From the IMG/VR virus record IMGVR_UViG_3300031857_000994, positions 1 to 29,492 of that record: DNA of 29,492 bases. One strand, 5' to 3'. Positions 3,486-28,101 of the stretch are shown here, in pieces. Origin of the DNA: a virus. A model generated the notes under the pieces. It was not told the origin of the DNA. It did no database searches and saw only the letters and a list, made by a program, of their open reading frames with translations. Position 1 is the first letter of the stretch. Every line of letters starts with the position of its first letter. Position numbers and translations under genes: made by a program.

Positions 3486-4481
3486 TTAAAAAATATCATC
3501 CCAATTTTCACCTTCTCCTGCTTTACTATAATCAGTAGGTCTCATTGCGAAGAAGTCTGTGTGTGTAACTCCTCCTGTAAGATGAAAAAACCAGTCCAAT
3601 TCAGATGACTTCTTCTCATTGAATTTAAATGTTGGGTCATATCCAAGTTCAACTAATTTATCGTTTATTCGTTTATTGATGAATTCTTTAAGGTCAGACG
3701 CTTTCAAATTTTCGAGGTCTCCCATTTCAAAAATCTTATCGATAAATTTGTGTTCCAATTCTTGAATAAGTTTAGCCGCATTATAAATGTCTTCTTTAGC
3801 CTCTTTCAATAATTCAGGGTATTCTAAACACATGTGTCTGAATAATTGACATCCCATTTTAGAGTGAAGTGATTCGTCTCTCACACTCCATTTCATTTGT
3901 TGTCCGATACCTTTCAAAAGATTTCTCATTTGAAAACTATAGAGAACCGCAAATGATGAATATAATGCAACACCTTCAGCAAACGCTGAGAAAATTGCCA
4001 AACTTCTTGCAACCTCAACTCTCGCCTTAGGGTTTTTCTCTAAATCCTTTGGTGTCCAATCCGCGGTTGTATTAGTAAGTAATTCAAAACGTTCTTTCAT
4101 GGTCTCATCATGTAAAAACCCTTCAAAATCCTCCAAACCTAACGTCTCGTTTAGATATGAATAAGCTACCGAGTGAATCGTCTCTTGAGACCCAAACGCC
4201 ATCGCCATTTGTTTGATTTCGTGTTTTGGAAACCATTTAGTAACCATTCCTGTCCAATAATCTGAAACCGCACACTCTGTTTGTGCAAACCCTAATAAAA
4301 TATTACCAACTAAATGTTTTTCAGAATCACTTAGATTTTCGTTCCAATCTTTTAAATCTCCCTGCATAGGTATTTCGGTATGTAACCAAAAAGCCTGCAT
4401 TTGTTTTAACCACCCTTCGTTGAAATATTCAGGATATTCAAATGGTTTAAATGGTATTCTTTCTGTGAATAATCTACTCAT
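3486..4481 (-). CDS. nrdB: Class I ribonucleoside-diphosphate reductase, beta (small) subunit
   Basis: The 331-aa protein is the radical-generating partner of NrdA. Ferritin-like metal ligands are visible at E69 (TECAVSDYW), E100 and H103 (SQETIHSVAY), E169 (FAEGVALY), and E203 and H206 (RDESLHSKM). The residue equivalent to the E. coli radical tyrosine Y122 is Y107. By spacing (31 residues before E100) E69 occupies the place of E. coli D84, so this metal ligand is Glu instead of Asp. The C-terminus ends in an acidic-aromatic tail (NWDDIF) of the kind that docks on NrdA. The gene starts 8 bp after the helicase stop and runs into nrdA. Confidence 0.96.
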   Translation of the reverse strand: MSRLFTERIPFKPFEYPEYFNEGWLKQMQAFWLHTEIPMQGDLKDWNENLSDSEKHLVGNILLGFAQTECAVSDYWTGMVTKWFPKHEIKQMAMAFGSQETIHSVAYSYLNETLGLEDFEGFLHDETMKERFELLTNTTADWTPKDLEKNPKARVEVARSLAIFSAFAEGVALYSSFAVLYSFQMRNLLKGIGQQMKWSVRDESLHSKMGCQLFRHMCLEYPELLKEAKEDIYNAAKLIQELEHKFIDKIFEMGDLENLKASDLKEFINKRINDKLVELGYDPTFKFNEKKSSELDWFFHLTGGVTHTDFFAMRPTDYSKAGEGENWDDIF

Positions 4482-16428: not shown

Positions 16429-16741
16429 AATATAAATTATACAACTCTACTCCTCTCTTGTAATCTTGTAAAGTGGAGTTCAAGGGAAATGGTATTCTTA
16501 AAATGTAATTGTCTCCAATTTCAAATTCATTAGTACCCGCAGTTGGATTGGCCATCATAATTAACCAACCAAAAATTGGGGTGTTATAAAACTCTTGTGA
16601 TAATTTATCTAATCTATCTTTCCCTCTTTTATATTGATGATATTTGTCTGTACCTTTTATTGGTATTTCAATACCAGGTACTATTCTGAATTTACCATCA
16701 TCTATAAAAAACTGATACCTATCGAAATAACTTCTACTCAT
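16415..16741 (-). CDS. gp53: Baseplate wedge/adaptor, gp53- or LysM-like
   Basis: The 108-aa protein carries KRGKDRLDKLSQEFYNTPIF followed by GWLIMMANPT. This is the typical LysM-like signature of baseplate adaptor proteins: an Arg/Asp-Leu-Asp-Lys-Leu helix, an aromatic-rich turn, then W and an Ala-Asn. It is shorter than T4 gp53 (196 aa) and could equally be an XkdP-type LysM adaptor. Such proteins connect the tail tube end or wedges to the hub. It overlaps the 1584-aa gene by 4 bp (ATGA) and the hub-like gene by 14 bp, implying coupled translation of the three. Confidence 0.62.
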   Translation of the reverse strand: MSRSYFDRYQFFIDDGKFRIVPGIEIPIKGTDKYHQYKRGKDRLDKLSQEFYNTPIFGWLIMMANPTAGTNEFEIGDNYILRIPFPLNSTLQDYKRGVELYNLYYGEQ

Positions 16742-19700
16742 GAGTTAAAATAGTTTAATTTATTATTTATCGGTTGAGTTTTATTTTTATCTTTTAATTT
16801 TTTAACTTCACTTTTAACCGCATCATCTGTTACTTCTGACTCGGTAGATTTCGCGAATGAAATCTCTTTGTTGTTTTTTCTTTTCTTTAGTTTTTTTAAT
16901 CTAAACCTTTTATCTTTAATTGAATCAGAAATAAAAGAATCATATTTTCTTTCAATTTTATTCATGGTGTTTGTATCGAAAATTGAAGTATCTATTTTAA
17001 AAACATTTTTAAATCCTTCTTTATCTGTTTCTTTTAATAATACAGATAATAGTTCAGAAAGTACACTCGTAGTGATTGTTGGGTTATTATAGTTTATTGT
17101 AGTATCTAAATCTTCGTATAATTTATTTGTATTATTTGTAAAGTGTTCTATACAGTTTTCATATTCATCATAAATTAAATTATATGTGAATCCTGATAAT
17201 ACACACTTGGTTACTGTTGTTCCTGTAATTTTAGCATCATACCCATATTTTACTAAAAAGTTAACTTTGTCTAAAGATTCAATAACCTCGTCTCTTTGTT
17301 TAATAAAACCATCACTTCCACTCAATAAGATTTGTACTTTGTCTGTTATTGAATTTATTTTAGTTTCAATTGTTGTTTTAAAATATGGTTGTAATAATTC
17401 ATTTGCTTTATTTTGTTTTGGTACTGGTAAAACATCATCAAGACCCATCATTTGACATATATCAGTTGTTAACAACGTCTTTAACATAGATTCTTTTAAA
17501 ACCTTAACGTAATAAGATAATTGTCTATTTGTTGGATACTCACCAAATAAATCTATATTAAGTCCCGCACTTGATGATGTTGTGTTATATATATCATATT
17601 GTTTAATTTCTCTATAATTTGGGTGTAAAATAAAGGATGAAATTGATGGTCCATACTCTTTTACTATCTCATTGTAAAAAGATTGAATTTTTTCAAAATA
17701 ATTTTCTGTTGATTTATAAACATCGTCAACTAGTTCAGTGTAAACTAAATTGGTAGATTGTAATTTACCAATGTATCCTTCGGAAAAATTATCCCCCTTA
17801 CTATTATTTGGTTTATCTTCTATTTTTGGAAGTGTTTCTCTTATTTTTTCTAAAAATTCTCTAGTGAATTCCTCTCTCTTTTGACCGTTTATTGTCTCCG
17901 CGGTATTAATTGACCTCTCATCATACATTTCAGTATTTGCATAGAAATTAGAAGACAATGCGTTTTGTAGTCTTTCGACTGGTTTTGACAATCCTTGTCC
18001 ACCAATAAAGTTAACCTGTAGAGATACGTTTGCAATCATTGGTTGTACACCGATACCTTCTGGATTTAAATCCCATGTCGCATCTTCAAATGTTATGTTA
18101 ACATCTCTGATAATAACTTTAGAATGATAAAAATCACCAACTCTTAGTATACAAATTGGTGGTGGACCAAATGAAGTATTTCTTGCATTTAAATCAGAAA
18201 CATCACTTAATCCCTTTATAGGAATTGTATCACCCGGCCTAATACATTGTAACAAGAATGTTAATCTTGAATTAAGACCCTCTGGTGTTGTTGAGTGAAA
18301 AGCCGGATGAAAATATTTTAATTTTTCTCTAAGTGTTTTGAACACCACGGGATCACTTTCTTCTAACTTTTGAAAATAATAACACTCACTAAGTGTTTTC
18401 ATAATAATCCTCTTCATCAAATCGATTGGTGGTTTATTAGACGATGGAGGGTTTGTAGGTCCGTCAGTAGGTTCTAGTCTTGTTTTTATTGTTGGGTCCG
18501 GTTCAGGTGTTGATTGAGATGGGTCTGGTTTCGTGGTTTTTGTATATTCAAAAATCACGGCGGATTGTCTACAACCAAATGCAACAGGTGATACAACTTT
18601 TAATGAAATATCGTTATTATTACTATTACCTATACCATATTTGAATTCACTATTAGAACAATCTCTATTTTTATTTGAAGCCAATTCACCAGAACTAATT
18701 GTTCTAAAATTTATTTTACCATCAGATTCACTATACCCCAATTCTTTTAGTGTTATTTCTAAATCAAAATTTGTTTGTTGAGTCGCATTACCACTAAAAG
18801 ATGATGGCCATTTAGAGTCTAAAATACTTTTAGCATCAACATCTTTTTTTATTTTATCTAAAAAATCTAAAATGATACTATATGTTCTTCTAATTGATAA
18901 TCTAAAATTGTAATTATTATCCGCTAGTGCAGAACAAGAAGACCCTATCTGAACAGACAAATTTTTTACTAATCCAGCTTCAATATCTGTTTTTAAAGTT
19001 GTTGTTTGGGTTTCATATTTAGTAAATCCAGATTGTGCTTCGTTAATTTCTTTATTTAAATCAGCAACAACTTGGTTTTTATATGTAAGTGTTTCTCCTG
19101 TTGGAATATCTTTTCCAAATAAGATTTTTTTATCATGTATTGCGTTCGCGGTATTATATGAAGTACCAGATAATATTTCATCTAATATTGAATTCAAATT
19201 ACTCGTAGTAGAATTCAACCATCCTGTATCACCAATTGATCTATTATATTCAGATGTATATATTGCACCTTTAAATTCATCACTTCCGACTTTTTTAGGC
19301 CAATCATTTGCAAAGTTTAAACTTACTGTGAGATTTACTTTTTCACTATTATCTTTCAAAACAGGTGGTTCTTTTTTAGGAACGTCGCCTGTTGTTACAG
19401 TTTTAAATTCTTTAATTCTATCGGGGTCTTTTTTCCCGTTCAAATAATCTGTAATGGATTTAGCATCATCTGGTGTTATTTCTCTATATCTTGTTATTAA
19501 ATCATAAAAATCGATTTCTTCACAACCAGCAAAAAATGCGTTTATATAATTTTCAGATTCTTCATCTGACATTCCTTTGAAATGTTCTCTAACCAATAAA
19601 TTTAGTACACTCGGATGATCAACAACAACTTTAAAAGAAACTTGACCACTTCTTTCTGTATTTTGATATGTGTAAATTGGTTCGGGTCTTCCTAAAAATG

Positions 19701-21492
19701 TGTTACTTTCCCATCTAGCTGTATTTTGTTCTGACACTTTTAAGTCATATGGTGGAAACCACATAACTCTACCTCCATTATTTCCCCTTTCACAATAAGG
19801 TAAATCATTTACAGTAAAACCAGGCGTGTTTGATGTTTTCCATGCTAGGTTTTCAATTGAAAACATATATTTTTTTGCATAAAAACCATCACCTCTTGGT
19901 TTTATATTTGTGGATTCTGTGAAGTCTTTACCTCCATTAGAGATTGGTGCAATATTAAGATTCCATGTTCTATCTAAAATACTATCATCGTACTTTCTAA
20001 TATTCTGAGTTCTTTTCATTGTATCAGAATAATTTAAATACGACCTGTCTTTAGTCCAAACTCTACAATATTCTACACCACTTTCTCCTCCAAATTTATC
20101 TATATATTTAACCGCAGAACCTCTACTTAACAAAACATCACCTTCTCTAAAAATTCTACTTGTTTGATCAATAACATTAGCAACATGTGAACGAGCTTCA
20201 CCACCGTTTGATGGTAATGAGTCTAAAATTTCTTGGGTATACCCTAGTATTGAATCTTGTCTAAAATCAAAAGATGTTGATTGTGAATCGTCTAAATCTG
20301 TTTGTTGATTTGCCCATTCTTTATTGTTCGCACCTAATTCATTTTTAGAATTTCTACTAATCCATGTTAACTTACCTGTTATACTACCACCTTCAGAATA
20401 ATTTCTCTTTCTTTGGAACAATTCAGCTTGTACGGGGTCAAACATTAAACTTAAAAAATAATTACTTCTAACGGGTATGTCGTTAAAATCATTCATCGCA
20501 TATTTTACATCGTTACCCCTATCATCACCTATGTAAGCCTCACCTCTTGGAGCCTCAACACCTAAAAGGTCTTTAACTCCTTGTGCAACTTTATCGACAA
20601 AATTGAAAATCTTCGATGTGTTTTGTGATCTTGCTGATGTTGTGTAATTTGGTGAGTATTTTGAATATGACAGTAAATCATAAAGAACACTTTTTTGACC
20701 GCCCCCAAGATATTCAATCATTACATCGGATGGTTTTCTTGACGGTGATTGTCTTCTCTTTATACCTATTAATGAACCTAAAACACCTGTAACGTCTTGA
20801 AACACCTTACCTAATTCTGTTTTGGGTGTTGGTCTTACATTAACAGGGTTTCTTGGGTCGGAAAGATATTGACCCGGTATCTCTGAGAAAGGAAATTCAA
20901 CCCCCGCAGCAACTTGAACAAAATCAATAATCTTTCCTGGTAAAGTTTTCGCAACGGTGATACTATAATCAGGAGCAACCAAAGGTTCCCTTCCTGTTAC
21001 AATATTCGATGCAGTTGAAATACTTCCATTTAGAGCATCTGCAATCCTAAGTCTACCATTTGTTTGTCTCTCGATATTTTGTGAAATTCTTGAATAAACG
21101 GGACCATTGTTAGATAATAGATATTTTCCCGCAAACTTCATTAATTCTGACTCAGAATCTAAATTATTCTGTCTAAATACACTTATTAAATTGTGGTTTT
21201 GTAATTGAAAATATGGGTATAAACTAAGATTTGCTCTTCTTGGTAGAGTATCTATATTTTCGGTTACACTAAATTCTAATGGTTTAAAAACGTTACCTGT
21301 TTGTGGAAGTTGTAACATTTGAGTTCTATTATCCACAACCGTACCCGGATTTATATTTGCACTATCACTCAAATTTTGAATAGAATAGTTACCTGAGTTA
21401 AAAGTTTGAGGGCCGTTTGGCTGGTTCAAAGTTTTACCTAACACATAATCTCTAAATCTTTTAGTAGAATCAAAATCTAAGTAACTTGGCAT
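16738..21492 (-). CDS. Giant tail/baseplate structural protein
   Basis: The 1584-aa protein lies between tape measure and adaptor. The N-terminus (MPSYLDFDSTKRFRDYVLGK) starts a long Asn/Ser-rich region. Residues about 540-640 hold an aromatic strand-rich module (GRVMWFPPYDLKVSEQNTAR, GQVSFKVVVDHPSVLNLL). A proline-rich linker sits near residue 1000 (PDPSQSTPEPDPTIK). At about 1110-1165 is a tail-type beta module, GDFYHSKVIIRDVNITFED then WDLNPEGIGVQPMIANVSLQ, of a type seen in tube-end and baseplate proteins. The end is lysine-rich (RFRLKKLKKRKNNK). By position it may take the place of T4 gp48/gp54 at the tube base, or be an adhesin-bearing baseplate component; sequence alone does not decide. 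No fibre-type collagen repeats are visible. Confidence 0.6.
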   Translation of the reverse strand: MPSYLDFDSTKRFRDYVLGKTLNQPNGPQTFNSGNYSIQNLSDSANINPGTVVDNRTQMLQLPQTGNVFKPLEFSVTENIDTLPRRANLSLYPYFQLQNHNLISVFRQNNLDSESELMKFAGKYLLSNNGPVYSRISQNIERQTNGRLRIADALNGSISTASNIVTGREPLVAPDYSITVAKTLPGKIIDFVQVAAGVEFPFSEIPGQYLSDPRNPVNVRPTPKTELGKVFQDVTGVLGSLIGIKRRQSPSRKPSDVMIEYLGGGQKSVLYDLLSYSKYSPNYTTSARSQNTSKIFNFVDKVAQGVKDLLGVEAPRGEAYIGDDRGNDVKYAMNDFNDIPVRSNYFLSLMFDPVQAELFQRKRNYSEGGSITGKLTWISRNSKNELGANNKEWANQQTDLDDSQSTSFDFRQDSILGYTQEILDSLPSNGGEARSHVANVIDQTSRIFREGDVLLSRGSAVKYIDKFGGESGVEYCRVWTKDRSYLNYSDTMKRTQNIRKYDDSILDRTWNLNIAPISNGGKDFTESTNIKPRGDGFYAKKYMFSIENLAWKTSNTPGFTVNDLPYCERGNNGGRVMWFPPYDLKVSEQNTARWESNTFLGRPEPIYTYQNTERSGQVSFKVVVDHPSVLNLLVREHFKGMSDEESENYINAFFAGCEEIDFYDLITRYREITPDDAKSITDYLNGKKDPDRIKEFKTVTTGDVPKKEPPVLKDNSEKVNLTVSLNFANDWPKKVGSDEFKGAIYTSEYNRSIGDTGWLNSTTSNLNSILDEILSGTSYNTANAIHDKKILFGKDIPTGETLTYKNQVVADLNKEINEAQSGFTKYETQTTTLKTDIEAGLVKNLSVQIGSSCSALADNNYNFRLSIRRTYSIILDFLDKIKKDVDAKSILDSKWPSSFSGNATQQTNFDLEITLKELGYSESDGKINFRTISSGELASNKNRDCSNSEFKYGIGNSNNNDISLKVVSPVAFGCRQSAVIFEYTKTTKPDPSQSTPEPDPTIKTRLEPTDGPTNPPSSNKPPIDLMKRIIMKTLSECYYFQKLEESDPVVFKTLREKLKYFHPAFHSTTPEGLNSRLTFLLQCIRPGDTIPIKGLSDVSDLNARNTSFGPPPICILRVGDFYHSKVIIRDVNITFEDATWDLNPEGIGVQPMIANVSLQVNFIGGQGLSKPVERLQNALSSNFYANTEMYDERSINTAETINGQKREEFTREFLEKIRETLPKIEDKPNNSKGDNFSEGYIGKLQSTNLVYTELVDDVYKSTENYFEKIQSFYNEIVKEYGPSISSFILHPNYREIKQYDIYNTTSSSAGLNIDLFGEYPTNRQLSYYVKVLKESMLKTLLTTDICQMMGLDDVLPVPKQNKANELLQPYFKTTIETKINSITDKVQILLSGSDGFIKQRDEVIESLDKVNFLVKYGYDAKITGTTVTKCVLSGFTYNLIYDEYENCIEHFTNNTNKLYEDLDTTINYNNPTITTSVLSELLSVLLKETDKEGFKNVFKIDTSIFDTNTMNKIERKYDSFISDSIKDKRFRLKKLKKRKNNKEISFAKSTESEVTDDAVKSEVKKLKDKNKTQPINNKLNYFNS

Positions 21493-21549: not shown

Positions 21550-23475
21550 TTATAAATCAACATACAAATAACCATTTGGATTTGAGGAATCAATAGTGTT
21601 AGATATTACAATTTTACCCTTATCATCATATTTGGTTTGTGTTCTTGCGTCTCTCATAATTCTCTCCATTTCGGCCGCAGTAAGAGGTTTATTGTTAGGG
21701 TCGGTATTTGTGTTATTTTGATTAGTTTGTTGGTTATTGTTAACATTTGTGGGAGTTAATGGTTGAGTTGATGTTTTTGTTGAATTTTCTTGAACCTTTG
21801 TGTTTAATTCCTTTCTTCTACTTTCAATTTCTGCATTTATATCCGTGTTACTTCTATCACCCTTGATATAGTTTTTTAACATATCATCAGCCTGCTTAAT
21901 ATACTTGTCCATGTCAGCACCCATACTTCTATAGGTGTTTGCAAACTCAACTTTTAACATTGCAGCAATTTCTGAAACTGTTAATGCTAATTTTTGTGTT
22001 TCGGTAAATTGTTCTAATGCGATATCTTTTGGGTTCATTTTTTCAAACTCTTTTTGATTTTCTAAAATTGCATTTGCCGCGGTTTGACTTAATTCATCTA
22101 ATGCTATTGTACTTTGATCCTTTGCTAATCCCAACGATTCCGCAATAGACGGAGGCACCTCAATAACCATTTTACCGTCTTTACCCATTCTAGCTAAGTT
22201 TGTAATAAATTCTTTTTCTTTATCGTCCACAGCAATACCCGCGGTCATTAAATCTGCGGCAGCTGAGGTTCTTTCTGCCGCAGCGATAGCCATTTGCGAT
22301 AAGTCTTGATAACTCATACCGAGTTCTTCAGCCATAGCTCTCGCTCTTCTTAAGTTAACACCCGTTATTTCAAATTTACCATTTTCTTCACTATATACGG
22401 CCAAAGATTCCGCGGCTCCAATCAACGCATCTTGTAATCCTTCCACGTTATTTGTAGCCATATACATCATTTGGAATGGGTCACCTAATGAACCAATCGC
22501 ACCACCTAATACTTGTAAATTAGCTGCTAAATCTATTGCTTTCTCAGGTGACATTACTTTTTCTGCAATGTCAAACACATTTTGCATGTTCATTCTAAAT
22601 TCAACAGATTTTTGAACCATTCTATTTAATCCTTGAACACCATTTTCAAAACCATATTGATTTATTCTTCCGATGTTTTTCTGAAATTCTTCTGTTGTTT
22701 TTCTAATATTTAAACCTAATGTAAGTGAAGATTTACCACCCGCATTAATATTTTCTAATGTTTTTTCTGCACCAATACCAACGAGTTCAAAACTTCTTAA
22801 TATTGGAGCCATTTCTTTCATGTCACCAATGAATGCTCTCGATGTTACTGCCATGTTTTCCATAACAGATTCATTCATTGTGAAAAATCTTCCTGTTTCT
22901 TTGGTTGCGGATATTGCGGTATCGGCCAATTCATCGAATGAATAACCCATACCTTGAACACCGTCATAAGCATTTACAATATTATCTCTATATCCTCTTG
23001 ATAATTCTTTTCCAATACCAATTTGGCTATTTAACTTATTCCTTAGTTCAACTTCCTTATTTACGATGTTCACCATCCCTTCGTAAAGATTTGATAAACC
23101 AGTTGAAAAAAGTCCTTTTAAACCGTCTTTTAGTGATTGACTACCAAATAACGCTTTACCAATTGATACCGCAGCATCGGCAATTTTGTCAGCTCCAATT
23201 AATTCAGTAGATGCCTCCGCACTTATCATTCCGTATCCTGTTGTAAACCCTTGTGCGGATACCGCTTTAGAAATTACACCTTTTCCACTTGTATCACCAG
23301 AACCCTTTTTATGATAGTGAGATAAAAATTGTTGACTTTCTCCTTGTGTTAATGAATATCTACCAGAAATATTATTATTTTTATTGTACATATTCATGGC
23401 GTCAATATACGCACCAGAATCTGCGTCTGCACTTCCAAATTTACCAATATAATCACTTATTAACGGTTTGTTCAT
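21550..23475 (-). CDS. Tail tape measure protein
   Basis: The 641-aa protein is close in length to T4 gp29 (590 aa), which sets tail length. It is mostly helical with long amphipathic stretches and a glycine/alanine-rich N-terminal third (about 75-125) that includes a moderately hydrophobic segment, SIGKALFGSQSLKDGLKGLF. The centre (about 200-470) is helix-rich with repeated Met/Ala (for example AIAAAERTSAAADLMTAG), and a Thr/Asn/Gln-rich linker near 560-600 precedes the end. Placement directly after the gp26-type chaperone pair and before baseplate genes is the standard place for a tape measure in contractile-tailed phages. Start at 23475 lies 11 nt beyond the stop of the frameshifted chaperone frame. 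Confidence 0.8.
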   Translation of the reverse strand: MNKPLISDYIGKFGSADADSGAYIDAMNMYNKNNNISGRYSLTQGESQQFLSHYHKKGSGDTSGKGVISKAVSAQGFTTGYGMISAEASTELIGADKIADAAVSIGKALFGSQSLKDGLKGLFSTGLSNLYEGMVNIVNKEVELRNKLNSQIGIGKELSRGYRDNIVNAYDGVQGMGYSFDELADTAISATKETGRFFTMNESVMENMAVTSRAFIGDMKEMAPILRSFELVGIGAEKTLENINAGGKSSLTLGLNIRKTTEEFQKNIGRINQYGFENGVQGLNRMVQKSVEFRMNMQNVFDIAEKVMSPEKAIDLAANLQVLGGAIGSLGDPFQMMYMATNNVEGLQDALIGAAESLAVYSEENGKFEITGVNLRRARAMAEELGMSYQDLSQMAIAAAERTSAAADLMTAGIAVDDKEKEFITNLARMGKDGKMVIEVPPSIAESLGLAKDQSTIALDELSQTAANAILENQKEFEKMNPKDIALEQFTETQKLALTVSEIAAMLKVEFANTYRSMGADMDKYIKQADDMLKNYIKGDRSNTDINAEIESRRKELNTKVQENSTKTSTQPLTPTNVNNNQQTNQNNTNTDPNNKPLTAAEMERIMRDARTQTKYDDKGKIVISNTIDSSNPNGYLYVDL

Positions 23476-23486
23476 ATTAATAAATA

Positions 23487-23642
23487 CTATTTGGAAGTAT
23501 TTTCTAATTCAATTAAATAACTAATATAATATCGTCTGATATAGACAGGCATAAGAAGGATGTCTCGATATGAGAATCCTCTTTTTACTAAAAATAAAAT
23601 TTCGTCTAATTGTCCCTTACTATAATCCGTAGAAAGGGCGAA
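23487..23642 (-). CDS. Second frame of tail assembly chaperone (probable +1 frameshift extension)
   Basis: After the gp26-like stop region a second frame codes for 51 residues beginning FALSTDYSKGQLDEILFLVK and continuing RGFSYRDILLMPVYIRR YYISYLIELENTSK. Its Y-R-D-I-x-x-M-P motif is typical of second-frame tail chaperones (gp51/G-T type). It has no ATG, GTG or TTG before an internal Met, and it is closed upstream by a TAG at about 23651-23649. Frame 0 reads GAA TTT TTT CGC at 23649-23638. A +1 slip of Phe-tRNA from TTT (23643-23641) to TTC (23642-23640) would join 242 residues of frame 0 to these 51, giving a fusion of about 293 aa. A -2 shift would reach the same frame but pairs poorly in the P site. 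The frameshift is an inference; the coding look of the second frame is clear. Confidence 0.8.
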   Translation of the reverse strand, partial: FALSTDYSKGQLDEILFLVKRGFSYRDILLMPVYIRRYYISYLIELENTSK

Positions 23643-24369
23643 AAAATTCTACCCCGAATCCAATTTCAACTTGGATTGTGTCTCCTGACGGGGTCGTTAC
23701 TGTTTTTTTAAGATCTAATGATGGTTTATTTTCTTTAATGTATTTTCTGAAATTTTGTGAATCTTTAATTGGTAGGTTTTGAACAAAGTTGTGAATGTTC
23801 ATCATTTCTCTATTACTTGCAACAGATTTAATCATCATCTCCAATTCTTTAGTTACAAGTGGAGCAACTCCGTTACCATTCCAACTTTTTTCTATTTCAT
23901 CAAGTTCTTTTTGTTGTTTCTTAGTTAAAAACTTAAAAGTAACTTCCACTTTAGATTTTTCCATAAAATATTTGAATTCACCATTTTCATTTGGTGTTAA
24001 TCCAAAATCTTTAAACTTAACTTCACTTAAATCAACCTTTGCGGTAAACGCTTCGTTTGTTTTTGGATCTGTTACATAAACATTGAATTCGGGACCAAAA
24101 GCGGTATTTCTTAAGAAGATTAAAATTGCTTGCCTATCCTCATCAACCAAATCATCTGAATTAAAATCTTTATCTAAAATTTTTCTTTTCAATAATTCGT
24201 CAACTACCGTATTACTTTGAATTAGGTTTTGTGCTGATAATATATTTTCGTCAGCGGCTGTTAAGTATGCAACTCTTAAAGATTTTTTTTGTGTTGTATA
24301 GTGAATACCTCTACTTGGTAATTCAACAACATCATATGCAATTGTTGGGTCTACTACAAATTGTTCCAT
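23620..24369 (-). CDS. gp26: Tail assembly chaperone / T4 gp26-family baseplate protein
   Basis: The 249-aa frame-0 protein matches the T4 gp26 (T4_baseplate) family: VVELPSRGIHYTT at residues 14-26, LRVAYLTAADENIL at 31-44, and then LLKRKILDKDFNSDDLVDEDR (59-79, shown in two parts: LLKRKILDKDF and DDLVDEDRQAILIFLR). In phages without a separate hub catalyst, these proteins act as chaperones that coat the tape measure before tube assembly. The last codons contain the slippery TTT TTT CGC that probably lets a fraction of ribosomes continue into the 23487-23642 frame. It follows the tube gene and a terminator and precedes the tape measure, the classic chaperone position. Confidence 0.85.
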   Translation of the reverse strand: MEQFVVDPTIAYDVVELPSRGIHYTTQKKSLRVAYLTAADENILSAQNLIQSNTVVDELLKRKILDKDFNSDDLVDEDRQAILIFLRNTAFGPEFNVYVTDPKTNEAFTAKVDLSEVKFKDFGLTPNENGEFKYFMEKSKVEVTFKFLTKKQQKELDEIEKSWNGNGVAPLVTKELEMMIKSVASNREMMNIHNFVQNLPIKDSQNFRKYIKENKPSLDLKKTVTTPSGDTIQVEIGFGVEFFRPFYGL

Positions 24370-25263: not shown

Positions 25264-28101
25264 TTAAATGTTATCGAAAGATGCACCTGTAGGTGTAATA
25301 ACAAACTCCACATCTATGAATTCAAGAGAACGAGTAGGTTTGATGTATATTTTACCTCTAAGTGTATTTGCGTCAATATCCTCTGGATCGTTAGATACTG
25401 TTACACGGAAATCATATAAACCTCTTTCTTTCTTAATTGACTCAAGAATAGGGTTTACCAATCTCAAGAACTCATTTCTTACTTGTTCATCGTTTTGTTC
25501 AAATAACAATCTAACCGCAACCGCCGAAATTAACTTTCTAGCTCTTAATAACAATCTTCTTACGTTGATTCTATCAAGTGCGGATTCTCTAACCTGAAGG
25601 GTTTTGTTACCCCAAATAATTGTACCAGTGTCTGAGAATGTAGCAATTGGGTTAATTCTGTTCTTGTAAAGGTCGTCTCTTTCATCAAGGGTTAACTTCT
25701 TGAACGCTTTAATTGCATTTATAAGACCCCTTGAGTAACCCGCCACAGCGAACCAAGGATATGAAACATTGTCAGTCAATGCTATATTCTTTAAAACTTC
25801 ACCTGTTGGTGGAATATACAATTGAGTTGCATTGTCTCCATCTCTCACCTGAATCCAAGGCCAATATGTTGCTGAATAGTTACTATCAATTGCGATTGAA
25901 TCCAAATTGTCAATAACCTCTTCTGCAGTTGAAACGTTAGGGGCATTCATCACATAAAGTGAGTCAGCTCTATCGTTTTCAATCATGTCAATTGCTTGTG
26001 TTACCAATGAACTATGGTTAAAGAAATTTATACCTGGTGTTGCAAATACGTTAATATCTACCGCTTCAGGGTTTGCAAAAGTGTTTATACCTTGTAAGTA
26101 TGAGTAGTAGTCTGAGTTTCCGACAGTTGAACTAAAAACACCTCCATTAGTTGTGTGACCACTTACATAAACACTCTTACCAAAAATGTAAGAATCTTCG
26201 TTTGTTCTTACGTTTCTATAGATATCCCATCCATCGAAACCACCAAACACCGCGAAAGTGAACTTACGGAAAGAAATGTTTTCCAATTTATCTTTACTTG
26301 AACCTTCTAAATCATATGGTGTACACTGGAATGTTACTCCCGTTATAGAAGATGCGTTTGTTGATAAGTGGAAACCAAAAGTTTCTGTTAAGGCTCCTAA
26401 TCCCTTGTATTTCAATAAGTCTCTATCAAACCCAACTTGAGAGGATAAACCTAAGGAAACCTTTCTTATTTTATCACCATTTGATAAAACAGGTGTACCA
26501 TCTACTTCATACGATACCACATCACCTGCGTCAAAGTATTCAGTTTTATATAAAACACTACCTAATTTATTTCCACTACCAAACGCACCGTTATTTTTAA
26601 ATCCTTTAAAACCCGCAGGGAAAGCGTCAGTTGGATGATTGTCAGCCATAGATAACATAACGTATCTTGAACGTAATTCATATTCACCATCTGATGTACC
26701 AACTTTTCTTGCCACGTAACCTGGTAGGTCTGGATTCATATTACATCTTGTAAATTTCTCTAATACAACGATATTATCGTCAGAATCATTAAAATCTCTT
26801 ACTATTAAATCGAAATCACCACTATCCAAATCAATGTTTTGGATTGTAATTTTAACTTGGAAGTTTGCAGCTTCACCATCTGAAATTGTAATAACCTCAA
26901 ACAAATCAGCAACCTCACCACCACGAACCTCAGATACAACCATTGGTGAAATTGTGGTATCCCACTGACCCAAGAAGTTATTACCATCTGATTCTTCAAC
27001 TATTGTGGTGCTTAAACCTCTAATTAAACCCTTATCAAATGCCGATTTTAAAAGAGAAGAATAAACTTCATGAACATATAGAGGGAAATCTGATTTTACT
27101 TTGTCAAAAACTTCATGTCCTAAAACTTTAGTAATGAATTTAGTTGACGTTGTGTCTAAAGAACAGGTGAATGACTTAGATCCACTTGTTGAACCTGTTA
27201 CATTTAATGTAAATTCACCTAAAGGATTTCCTGTGATATCACCCGATATACTTACGGTTGAACCTGTTACTTCTAAATTTAATGTTTGACCACTATATGA
27301 ACCTCTTGATCTTAAAGCGGCCACAACAATATTATTATAGTCCGAATTTATTGACGCGTTATATTCATATCTTGTAACATCAAAACCTGTACCATCCCAA
27401 ACAAACAGATATGAATAAACATCTGTTATTGTTGCTCCACTGTTAAAAAACACATTGTACCATTCTTTTTCGTGATTGGATGTTTCATTATCCTGACCAG
27501 TTAATGGAGATACAACCTCTTTTGATGCAGTTAAAGCTGCAACATCATCTGCGTCAGGTTTACCAATTACAAACCAATTTCCTGTCTGACCAGTGGTATA
27601 ACCACTAAATTCAGATTTAATGTAATCTGTAATAGATGTACCATCAAATGATGTTTTACCCGATAATTCACCGTAAATTGTACTACCTGTGATACCAGCT
27701 GTTGTTGGTGTTAATGTTATACCTGTTGTTGAGGTATAACCTGTTAATGTAACTGAAACTCCACCTAAAGTTTTAATACCGTAAGTTTTTACTGGTTTGT
27801 AACCTGTTAAACCTAAAACTCTTGTTACGAATAATTGATTTGATTCTTCTAAATATGATTTCGCAACATATGGTAATTCATACTTTGGATTACCATTACC
27901 ATCTTTTACGGGTGATGATGGTCCAAAATATGTTTTAAACTCGTCGAAGTTGCTGATTAAAATTGGTTCAAAAGCGGGACCTTTTAAGGTTTCACCTACT
28001 AAACCGAGTGTTGTTACACCCACACTTTGAGCCACAAATGTTAAATCCTTCTCTGAGGTATATACACCAGGAGAAACGAAAACTCTGTTTGAACTTGCCA
28101 T
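25264..28101 (-). CDS. gp18: Tail sheath protein, T4 gp18 family
   Basis: The 945-aa protein starts with the standard sheath opening (FVSPGVYTSEKDLTFVAQ at 8-25, GLVGETLKGPAFEPILI at 33-49, FDEFKTYFG at 52-60) and ends with the conserved C-terminal domain (FRVTVSNDPEDIDANTLRGK, IYIKPTRSLEFIDVEFVI). This C-terminal arm knits sheath subunits together. T4 gp18 is 659 aa; the extra length is largely a Gly/Thr/Ser-rich insert at about 108-255, after which core-like IVVAALRSRGSY resumes. The insert probably decorates the sheath surface. The gene has its own upstream leader shared divergently with a small plus-strand gene, and a terminator downstream. Confidence 0.95.
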   Translation of the reverse strand: MASSNRVFVSPGVYTSEKDLTFVAQSVGVTTLGLVGETLKGPAFEPILISNFDEFKTYFGPSSPVKDGNGNPKYELPYVAKSYLEESNQLFVTRVLGLTGYKPVKTYGIKTLGGVSVTLTGYTSTTGITLTPTTAGITGSTIYGELSGKTSFDGTSITDYIKSEFSGYTTGQTGNWFVIGKPDADDVAALTASKEVVSPLTGQDNETSNHEKEWYNVFFNSGATITDVYSYLFVWDGTGFDVTRYEYNASINSDYNNIVVAALRSRGSYSGQTLNLEVTGSTVSISGDITGNPLGEFTLNVTGSTSGSKSFTCSLDTTSTKFITKVLGHEVFDKVKSDFPLYVHEVYSSLLKSAFDKGLIRGLSTTIVEESDGNNFLGQWDTTISPMVVSEVRGGEVADLFEVITISDGEAANFQVKITIQNIDLDSGDFDLIVRDFNDSDDNIVVLEKFTRCNMNPDLPGYVARKVGTSDGEYELRSRYVMLSMADNHPTDAFPAGFKGFKNNGAFGSGNKLGSVLYKTEYFDAGDVVSYEVDGTPVLSNGDKIRKVSLGLSSQVGFDRDLLKYKGLGALTETFGFHLSTNASSITGVTFQCTPYDLEGSSKDKLENISFRKFTFAVFGGFDGWDIYRNVRTNEDSYIFGKSVYVSGHTTNGGVFSSTVGNSDYYSYLQGINTFANPEAVDINVFATPGINFFNHSSLVTQAIDMIENDRADSLYVMNAPNVSTAEEVIDNLDSIAIDSNYSATYWPWIQVRDGDNATQLYIPPTGEVLKNIALTDNVSYPWFAVAGYSRGLINAIKAFKKLTLDERDDLYKNRINPIATFSDTGTIIWGNKTLQVRESALDRINVRRLLLRARKLISAVAVRLLFEQNDEQVRNEFLRLVNPILESIKKERGLYDFRVTVSNDPEDIDANTLRGKIYIKPTRSLEFIDVEFVITPTGASFDNI

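Follow-up and report, generated by a model that had tools for sequence, protein, structure and literature searches.

A conserved UUU_CGN site and a probable programmed +1 frameshift in a putative T4-type tail assembly chaperone gene

Background

Phages lambda (G/GT), P2 and Mu each produce a short and a long tail assembly chaperone from one gene, the ribosome slipping close to where the first frame ends. The shift in P2 is -1. In the 2022 account of Vladimirov and colleagues, frameshifting is said to be kept in several T4-like groups, with genes 26 and 51 separate in T4. The shift is -1 in lambda according to the relevant passage of a review and -2 in Mu, in contrast to the +1 proposed for the locus described here; the likeness drawn here is one of arrangement.

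The T4-like chaperone genes were identified in 2022 (Vladimirov, Gautam & Davidson, by the title in the reference list of PMC10885494), and to judge from that title and from passages citing the paper, earlier publications already cover both the identity of the chaperones and the occurrence of frameshifting in some T4-like phages. A passage of a later paper citing that work mentions T4-like phages with one short gene and a long, fused one, and a statement in PMC12846349 names poly-T sequences as -1 signals in T4-like chaperone genes. A passage of a 2010 comparison of T4-like genomes gives cyanophage gp51 about 20% of the usual length and without the first ~200 residues (PMC3037559), while one in a 2016 review describes G-T frameshifting as widely conserved, with T4 as the exception (PMC5009743).

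Forward shifting is, as such, nothing new for chaperone genes. The chaperone site of HSTV-2 is called 'very likely +1' in the same 2016 review (PMC5009743), a forward shift like the one considered here, and the SEA-PHAGES set used to train PRFect is described as holding 350 forward cases among 2,718 slip-site cases, mostly or wholly within tail assembly chaperone genes. The UUU_CGN site is described from eukaryotic RNA viruses: UCC_UUU_CGU of influenza A PA-X was demonstrated to shift +1 (a result stated in PMC3498833), and UUU_CGN was proposed as a +1 site in amalgaviruses (in the relevant part of PMC5052127). Those sites and the present one share UUU_CGN at a codon boundary, a +1 shift and a rare CGN codon in the A site, but the present one belongs to a double-stranded DNA phage translated by bacterial ribosomes, and its slip codon is preceded by UUU where that of PA-X follows UCC. 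The literature searched gave no description of a phage chaperone gene with a +1 UUU_CGN site, though Vladimirov 2022 may contain a +1 group. A conserved site of this kind in such a gene looks new.

Results and Discussion

Layout of the locus

The window, the whole 29,492-nucleotide virus record analyzed here, carries T4-like tail genes on its minus strand. The features considered are:

23620-24369, minus strand: gp26-like ORF (short chaperone, 'G' or TAC-N), 249 aa, stop TAG at 23620-23622
23638-23646, minus strand: slip site TTT TTT CGC, 0-frame Phe Phe Arg; the second TTT is the codon proposed to slip +1, to TTC
23649-23651, minus strand: upstream limit of the second frame, a TAG 2 nt ahead of the T run
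23487-23648, minus strand: second open frame ('T' or TAC-C), 53 codons, offset +1; post-slip codons 23490-23639, stop 23487-23489
23487-24369, minus strand: proposed frameshift fusion (GT or TAC-NC), 293 aa
24464-24952, minus strand: upstream neighbor, gp19-like tail tube protein (PF06841, E 1.2e-6; phrog_4542, E 1.7e-25)
21550-23475, minus strand: 641-aa ORF directly downstream, in the tape measure position
25264-28101, minus strand: tail sheath, 945 aa (PHROG and Pfam matches)

The gp26-like ORF thus has a tail tube gene upstream by profile match, and the downstream ORF is a tape measure gene by position only: its PHROG and Pfam matches were no better than E 0.078, and BLASTP gave a weak match (E 0.012) to the tape measure protein of phage immuto.

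The last codons of the gp26-like ORF are GGG GTA GAA TTT TTT CGC CCT TTC TAC GGA TTA TAG. Direct reading of the frames confirmed the original prediction of a two-frame overlap with TTT TTT CGC and an offset of +1, although some of its measurements had to be changed. The TAG placed about 7 nt before the slippery run lies much closer to it, and the 51-codon frame said to lie beyond the gp26-like stop is real but continues 43 codons past that stop, with 50-51 residues from the slip. Reading TTTC as one step joins the two frames into a single protein. The second frame was also held to lack a start codon, and indeed no ATG, GTG or TTG occurs in the window ahead of residue 31 of the T part, which is an ATG. 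The CGC codon, predicted to be uncommon, occurs once among the 9,062 codons of the 19 long minus-strand ORFs of the window, and that one is the slip codon; the other CGN codons number 26 (CGT), 6 (CGA) and 0 (CGG), all counted in window codons. The window pair therefore resembles frameshifted pairs of the lambda G/GT kind in having an overlapping offset frame without its own start and a conserved slip site, and it resembles the UUU_CGN sites in having this motif in frame within the overlap, a second frame at +1, and CGN codons that are rare in the window.

Conservation among close relatives

Relatives of the 53-residue second frame were encoded in 224 stretches of viral contigs, the best 80 of which were used, and a search with the gp26-like protein gave 26 matching loci. 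In the loci from the gp26-like query alone, whose search patterns do not touch the slip site, TTT TTT CGC and the +1 offset were present in 25 of 25 usable loci (19 distinct). With both window proteins as queries, TTT TTT CG[C/T] and a second frame at +1 were found in 100 of 100 usable loci. These represent 56 distinct contexts, each from a different contig, with CGC in 50 and CGT in 6. The alignment of homologues that had been suggested as a check thus kept both the TTTTTTC run and the +1 offset in 56 of 56 distinct contexts, and none of these merged the two frames. The frame architecture and the conservation of the site are secure.

A second frame expressed from its own start codon had been named as evidence against a frameshift. 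Such a start is excluded in 31 of the 56 contexts, and in the window, by the lack of ATG, GTG and TTG before residue 18 of the T part, but in the other 25 a TTG or ATG stands in the second frame some 6-11 codons ahead of the slip. The start of the T part, FALSTDY, is conserved.

A motif-based scan asks for the site itself, and its loci were left out of the invariance counts. The +1 frame was complete in 76 of the 80 loci checked (from 120), several of them on contigs already counted, and was 46-64 codons long in 75 of these. One locus, L380, has the motif with a second frame of just 20 codons, either a real truncation or an assembly error.

Selection on the two frames and codon usage

Nucleotide diversity was compared by 0-frame codon position in 53 distinct windows of the window clade. 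Upstream of the site it was 0.167/0.116/0.302, whereas 30-90 nt downstream it was 0.328/0.123/0.045 and 90-150 nt downstream 0.442/0.216/0.113. In the window clade the third-base peak moves to the +1 frame after the site.

Arginine codons before the slip in the window-clade gp26-like ORFs were AGA (378), AGG (23), CGA (15) and CGT (7), with no CGG, and CGC was absent from all 423. Phenylalanine was encoded by TTT in 582 of 781 cases, and in-frame TTT followed by CG occurred elsewhere in these ORFs in 1 of 618 cases. Across all +1 ORFs, described below, TTT preceded CG five times and TG twice in 1,473 cases, whereas the sites have CGN or TGG in 170 of 178. The invariance of the site is partly forced by two-frame coding, because CGC or CGT supplies Ala or Val in the second frame; this does not hold for the avoidance elsewhere.

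A wider sample of loci

A set of 325 loci, several of which share a contig, was assembled from scans with cyanophage gp26, the second frame of Microcystis phage Mel-JY01 and a gp26 alignment, together with stretches of named phage records. Profiles found a gp26-like ORF in 321 loci, all but the window's own locus (L001, on the other strand), T4, RB43 and Aeromonas phage 31 (L107, L114, L115), and its stop in 319; L027 and L269 were left out because no stop was visible. A second frame ran across the gp26-like stop in 319 of 319 loci by a script that accepted any frame overlapping the stop and extending 60-500 nt past it, a count that excludes T4, RB43 and Aeromonas phage 31 as separate-gene phages without the overlap arrangement. 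The T profile, which was seeded with +1 types, matched at E<1 in 288 loci; the remaining 31, of which 30 are cyanophage-type, rest on the frame and, for those listed, on the sequences.

The offset was +1 in all 233 loci of HMM group G1. After removal of repeats, 260 contexts remained for motif counts. An alignment in which two rows (L014, L022) were misplaced did not enter these counts. Besides the window-clade motif, G1 contexts had TTT TTT TGG (96), TTT CTT TGG (17), TTT CTT TAC (3) and three single forms, all at +1. Named records with the +1 join were those of immuto, Mel-JY01, SP-15, LIS04, GXN1, RM378 and LR756508, and the sites include TTT TTT CAC in SP-15, TTT TTT AGT in LIS04 and TTC TTT CGT in GXN1. 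The site of L305 was TTT TTT TTC CCT by eye where the script had TTT TTC CCT. A +1 shift had been predicted to be unusual in the gp26 family; instead, a +1 offset is the rule in one large part of it, with 178 of 179 distinct contexts of HMM groups G1 and G3.

Not all T4-like phages follow the +1 rule of G1 and G3. Cyanophages and KVP40 have T_TTT_TTC with an offset of -1 in 81 of 81 contexts, as against the +1 at UUU_CGN of the window, and T4 has two separate PF12322 genes. LR756511 also has this -1 form. Where the sequences were inspected, a Phe-Phe or Phe-Leu pair marks the site near the C-terminal end of the gp26-like protein, and the first frame of LR756511 extends further. What the window shares with T4, the cyanophages and KVP40 is a short PF12322 protein, here with a C-terminal extension that may be of the gp51 kind and a place beside a tail tube gene and a putative tape measure gene.

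The third-base diversity peak moves to the -1 frame in the -1 set, and in the UGG set the shift is weak (0.627/0.585/0.487 downstream, in windows aligned without gaps). An ATG lies in the second frame before, or at most 60 nt after, the start of the slip in 79 of the 81 contexts of the -1 set (L112, L113 and L116-L195).

Identity of the proteins

The gp26-like protein matched PF12322 (T4_baseplate) at E 4.4e-9 with 36.8 bits (cut-off 24.5), and phrog_150 (baseplate hub) at 6.9e-11. Both gp26 and gp51 of T4 belong to PF12322 (8.8e-64 and 3.9e-52), and the match spans residues 1-201 of the 249 in gp51, with 48 beyond. Compared directly with gp51s, the +1-type extension gave an hhalign probability of 10% (E 0.003), and hmmsearch did no better than shuffled controls. 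The +1-type T part matched that of cyanophages and KVP40 with a probability of 94.5% (E 8e-8; hmmsearch to KVP40, 8.7e-6), and the cyanophage/KVP40 T part in turn matched the gp51 C-terminus with a probability of 97% (E 5e-11). A chaperone function by homology is likely.

An AlphaFold2 model of the fused protein had a mean pLDDT of 86.0 and a pTM of 0.79, with lower values in the extension (58-74 per ten residues). Predicted viral proteins gave 59 matches to the model at E<=0.001, and several of these are named baseplate hub or baseplate proteins. Foldseek gave no match to it in PDB at E<=0.001, and a sequence search for solved structures returned nothing credible. YqbN (3klu), which we take to be an XkdN-like chaperone, was the first row in VIA-align (Z 5.0, rmsd 3.8, 85 residues); it stood above the rest, but this Z may be chance, and it was not retained.

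Proposed mechanism

We consider it highly probable, from the comparison of sequences, that a programmed +1 frameshift yields the long form of a T4-type tail assembly chaperone. The original reading of the locus, a tail assembly chaperone with a +1 shift at TTT TTT CGC through a UUU-to-UUC slip beside a rare A-site CGC, fits the comparative data. From the frame architecture, the conservation and the invariant site we infer the slippage itself, its direction, exact codon and rate, and the chaperone role. The two frames would be one gene giving two proteins. The majority of ribosomes would terminate at the TAG at 23620 to give the 249-aa short chaperone. In a minority, the Phe-tRNA (anticodon GAA) would stand on the second UUU while the very rare CGC waits in the A site, and would move one base forward to UUC, after which the ribosome would read GCC CUU UCU ACG and so on. 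For the 50 residues thus added in the 293-aa long form, a small helical domain is predicted. If lambda G/GT is a guide, the short form would coat the tape measure protein, and the tail of the long form would bring in the tail tube.

The codon in the A site begins with a pyrimidine in 177 of the 178 +1 contexts, compared with 32% of the codons of the same ORFs, as P-site re-pairing on UUC or UUU needs. In the simplest account, a slow A-site codon would favor this re-pairing. In LIS04, the exception, the slip would have to take place on the first UUU. In the 17 relatives with CUU_UGG the re-pairing would be from CUU to UUU, the same as in the +1 shift of bacterial prfB (CUU then a stop); these differ from prfB in having a sense codon and no autoregulation.

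No conserved downstream RNA structure was found in the window clade (mean z -0.22 in 40 of 46 distinct 90-nt stretches; none by alifold), so no positive stimulator other than the codons is apparent in that clade, and a downstream pseudoknot or hairpin as stimulator was rejected. A hairpin around the site itself (GTAGAA/TTCTAC), visible by eye in the window, is broken by GTCGAG or GTGGAG in relatives. In the -1 set, the sequence just downstream gave a mean z of -2.23 against shuffled sequences (40 of 80 sequences), as expected if -1 sites use a stimulatory structure.

Alternative explanations

The second frame could be a separate small gene, translated by re-initiation or from a weak start and never fused to gp26. 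Several records are annotated in this way: immuto lists it as immuto35A_232 from an internal ATG (L103, 3354-3464), Mel-JY01 as WWT39326.1 from a TTG (L104, 3228-3464), KVP40 has it from an ATG overlapping the gp26 stop, and Bellamy and P-SSM2 list a separate gene. The upstream TTG or ATG codons in 25 of the 56 window-clade contexts and the ATG near the slip in most of the -1 set point the same way. However, FALSTDY is conserved even where no start precedes residue 18, and the slip nucleotides do not vary, a constancy that a separate gene would not require, making this explanation very unlikely. Sequencing error or a decayed gene might be suspected in a single virus record that is probably a metagenome assembly, but that idea is already refuted, with next to no chance of being right, since the arrangement recurs in 56 distinct contexts from as many contigs, is complete in nearly all of the motif-scan loci checked, and is the same in phages sequenced from culture. 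It is highly improbable that transcriptional slippage on the T run produces mRNAs lacking one U. Most +1 contexts do have runs of 6 or 7 T, and bacterial polymerases usually slip on longer runs; the 20 TTT CTT contexts have the same join with a longest nearby run of 3 (16 contexts) or 4 (4 contexts), and the codon after the run is conserved, though irrelevant to RNA polymerase.

A programmed shift to the +1 frame is thus very likely on the sequence comparisons, and that frame could also be reached by a -2 shift as in phage Mu, in which the Phe-tRNA would move back two U's and UUC would be reread, adding one Phe. The UUUUUU run permits P-site re-pairing at -2, and the frame alone cannot separate the two, but the pyrimidine after the slip codons is needed by +1 and not by -2, the 20 G1 contexts with TTT CTT before TGG (17) or TAC (3) have the CUU_U form of prfB +1 shifting, and UUU_CGU of PA-X shifts +1 in the account cited above. 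A -2 shift is accordingly quite unlikely, and +1 with the tRNA mechanism appears likely; the predicted junction peptide is GVEFFALSTDYSK under +1, with one extra Phe under -2. Lastly, the frameshift may be real while the proteins are parts of the baseplate hub rather than tail assembly chaperones. The family is named baseplate hub in databases (phrog_150, PF12322), and a review of the T4 tail cites genetic work placing gp26 in the hub (in a passage of PMC3004832). A table in that review, however, gives gp26 and gp51 as hub assembly chaperones, with gp51 absent from the particle (PMC3004832); the location next to the tail tube gene, with a gene annotated as tape measure on the other side in the records of immuto and LIS04, and the title of Vladimirov 2022, also favor chaperones. 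A hub role is therefore unlikely.

Possible evolution of shift direction

A tree was inferred from 46 representatives of 260 sequences and six T4-type proteins, with one cyanophage row left after thinning. It set 43 +1 rows and LR756511 (-1) apart from Bellamy and KVP40 (-1) and the separate-gene T4 types, on long branches with unsettled bootstrap support, so its details are unsure. LR756511 (L110), a huge-phage relative, has its -1 U_UUU_UUC at 2687-2760, and its nearest neighbors in the tree are +1, in a weakly supported placement.

On balance we lean towards one orthologous chaperone family with one slip position near the end of the gene and opposite directions of slippage. A large group of phages would shift +1 beside a slow A-site codon (UUU_CGN, UUU_UGG, CUU_UGG); cyanophages, KVP40 and, once more, LR756511 would shift -1 (U_UUU_UUC); and T4, having separate genes, would not shift at all. 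On this reading UUU_CGN would act as a +1 signal on both bacterial and eukaryotic ribosomes, and UUU_CGN and UUU_UGG are avoided elsewhere in the gene. We know of no general motif for forward frameshifting. A site described from eukaryotic viruses and kept base for base in bacterial viruses would open the question to bacterial genetics, in which rules such as the role of the CGN codon, the E-site codon and tRNA supply could be tested. The family would also illustrate how a programmed frameshift can keep its product and yet change direction. The annotation of Flavobacterium phage immuto and Microcystis phage Mel-JY01, in which part of the second frame is listed as a hypothetical small gene, would be corrected accordingly.

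Other features of the window

The best-scoring PHROG and Pfam stretches of the sheath lie in its C-terminal third (631-943 and 660-936), leaving about 600 residues unexplained. Also in the tail region, a 1,584-aa ORF (16738-21492, minus strand) matches nothing in PHROG or Pfam at E values up to 1. A search of genome contigs for a host gave a single weak match (L326, 50% over 36 residues) that looked like chance on reading. The ribonucleotide reductase beta subunit (3486-4481, minus strand) has its nearest matches in phages of Flavobacterium (52.9%) and Cellulophaga (50.5%), which hints at a Bacteroidota host.
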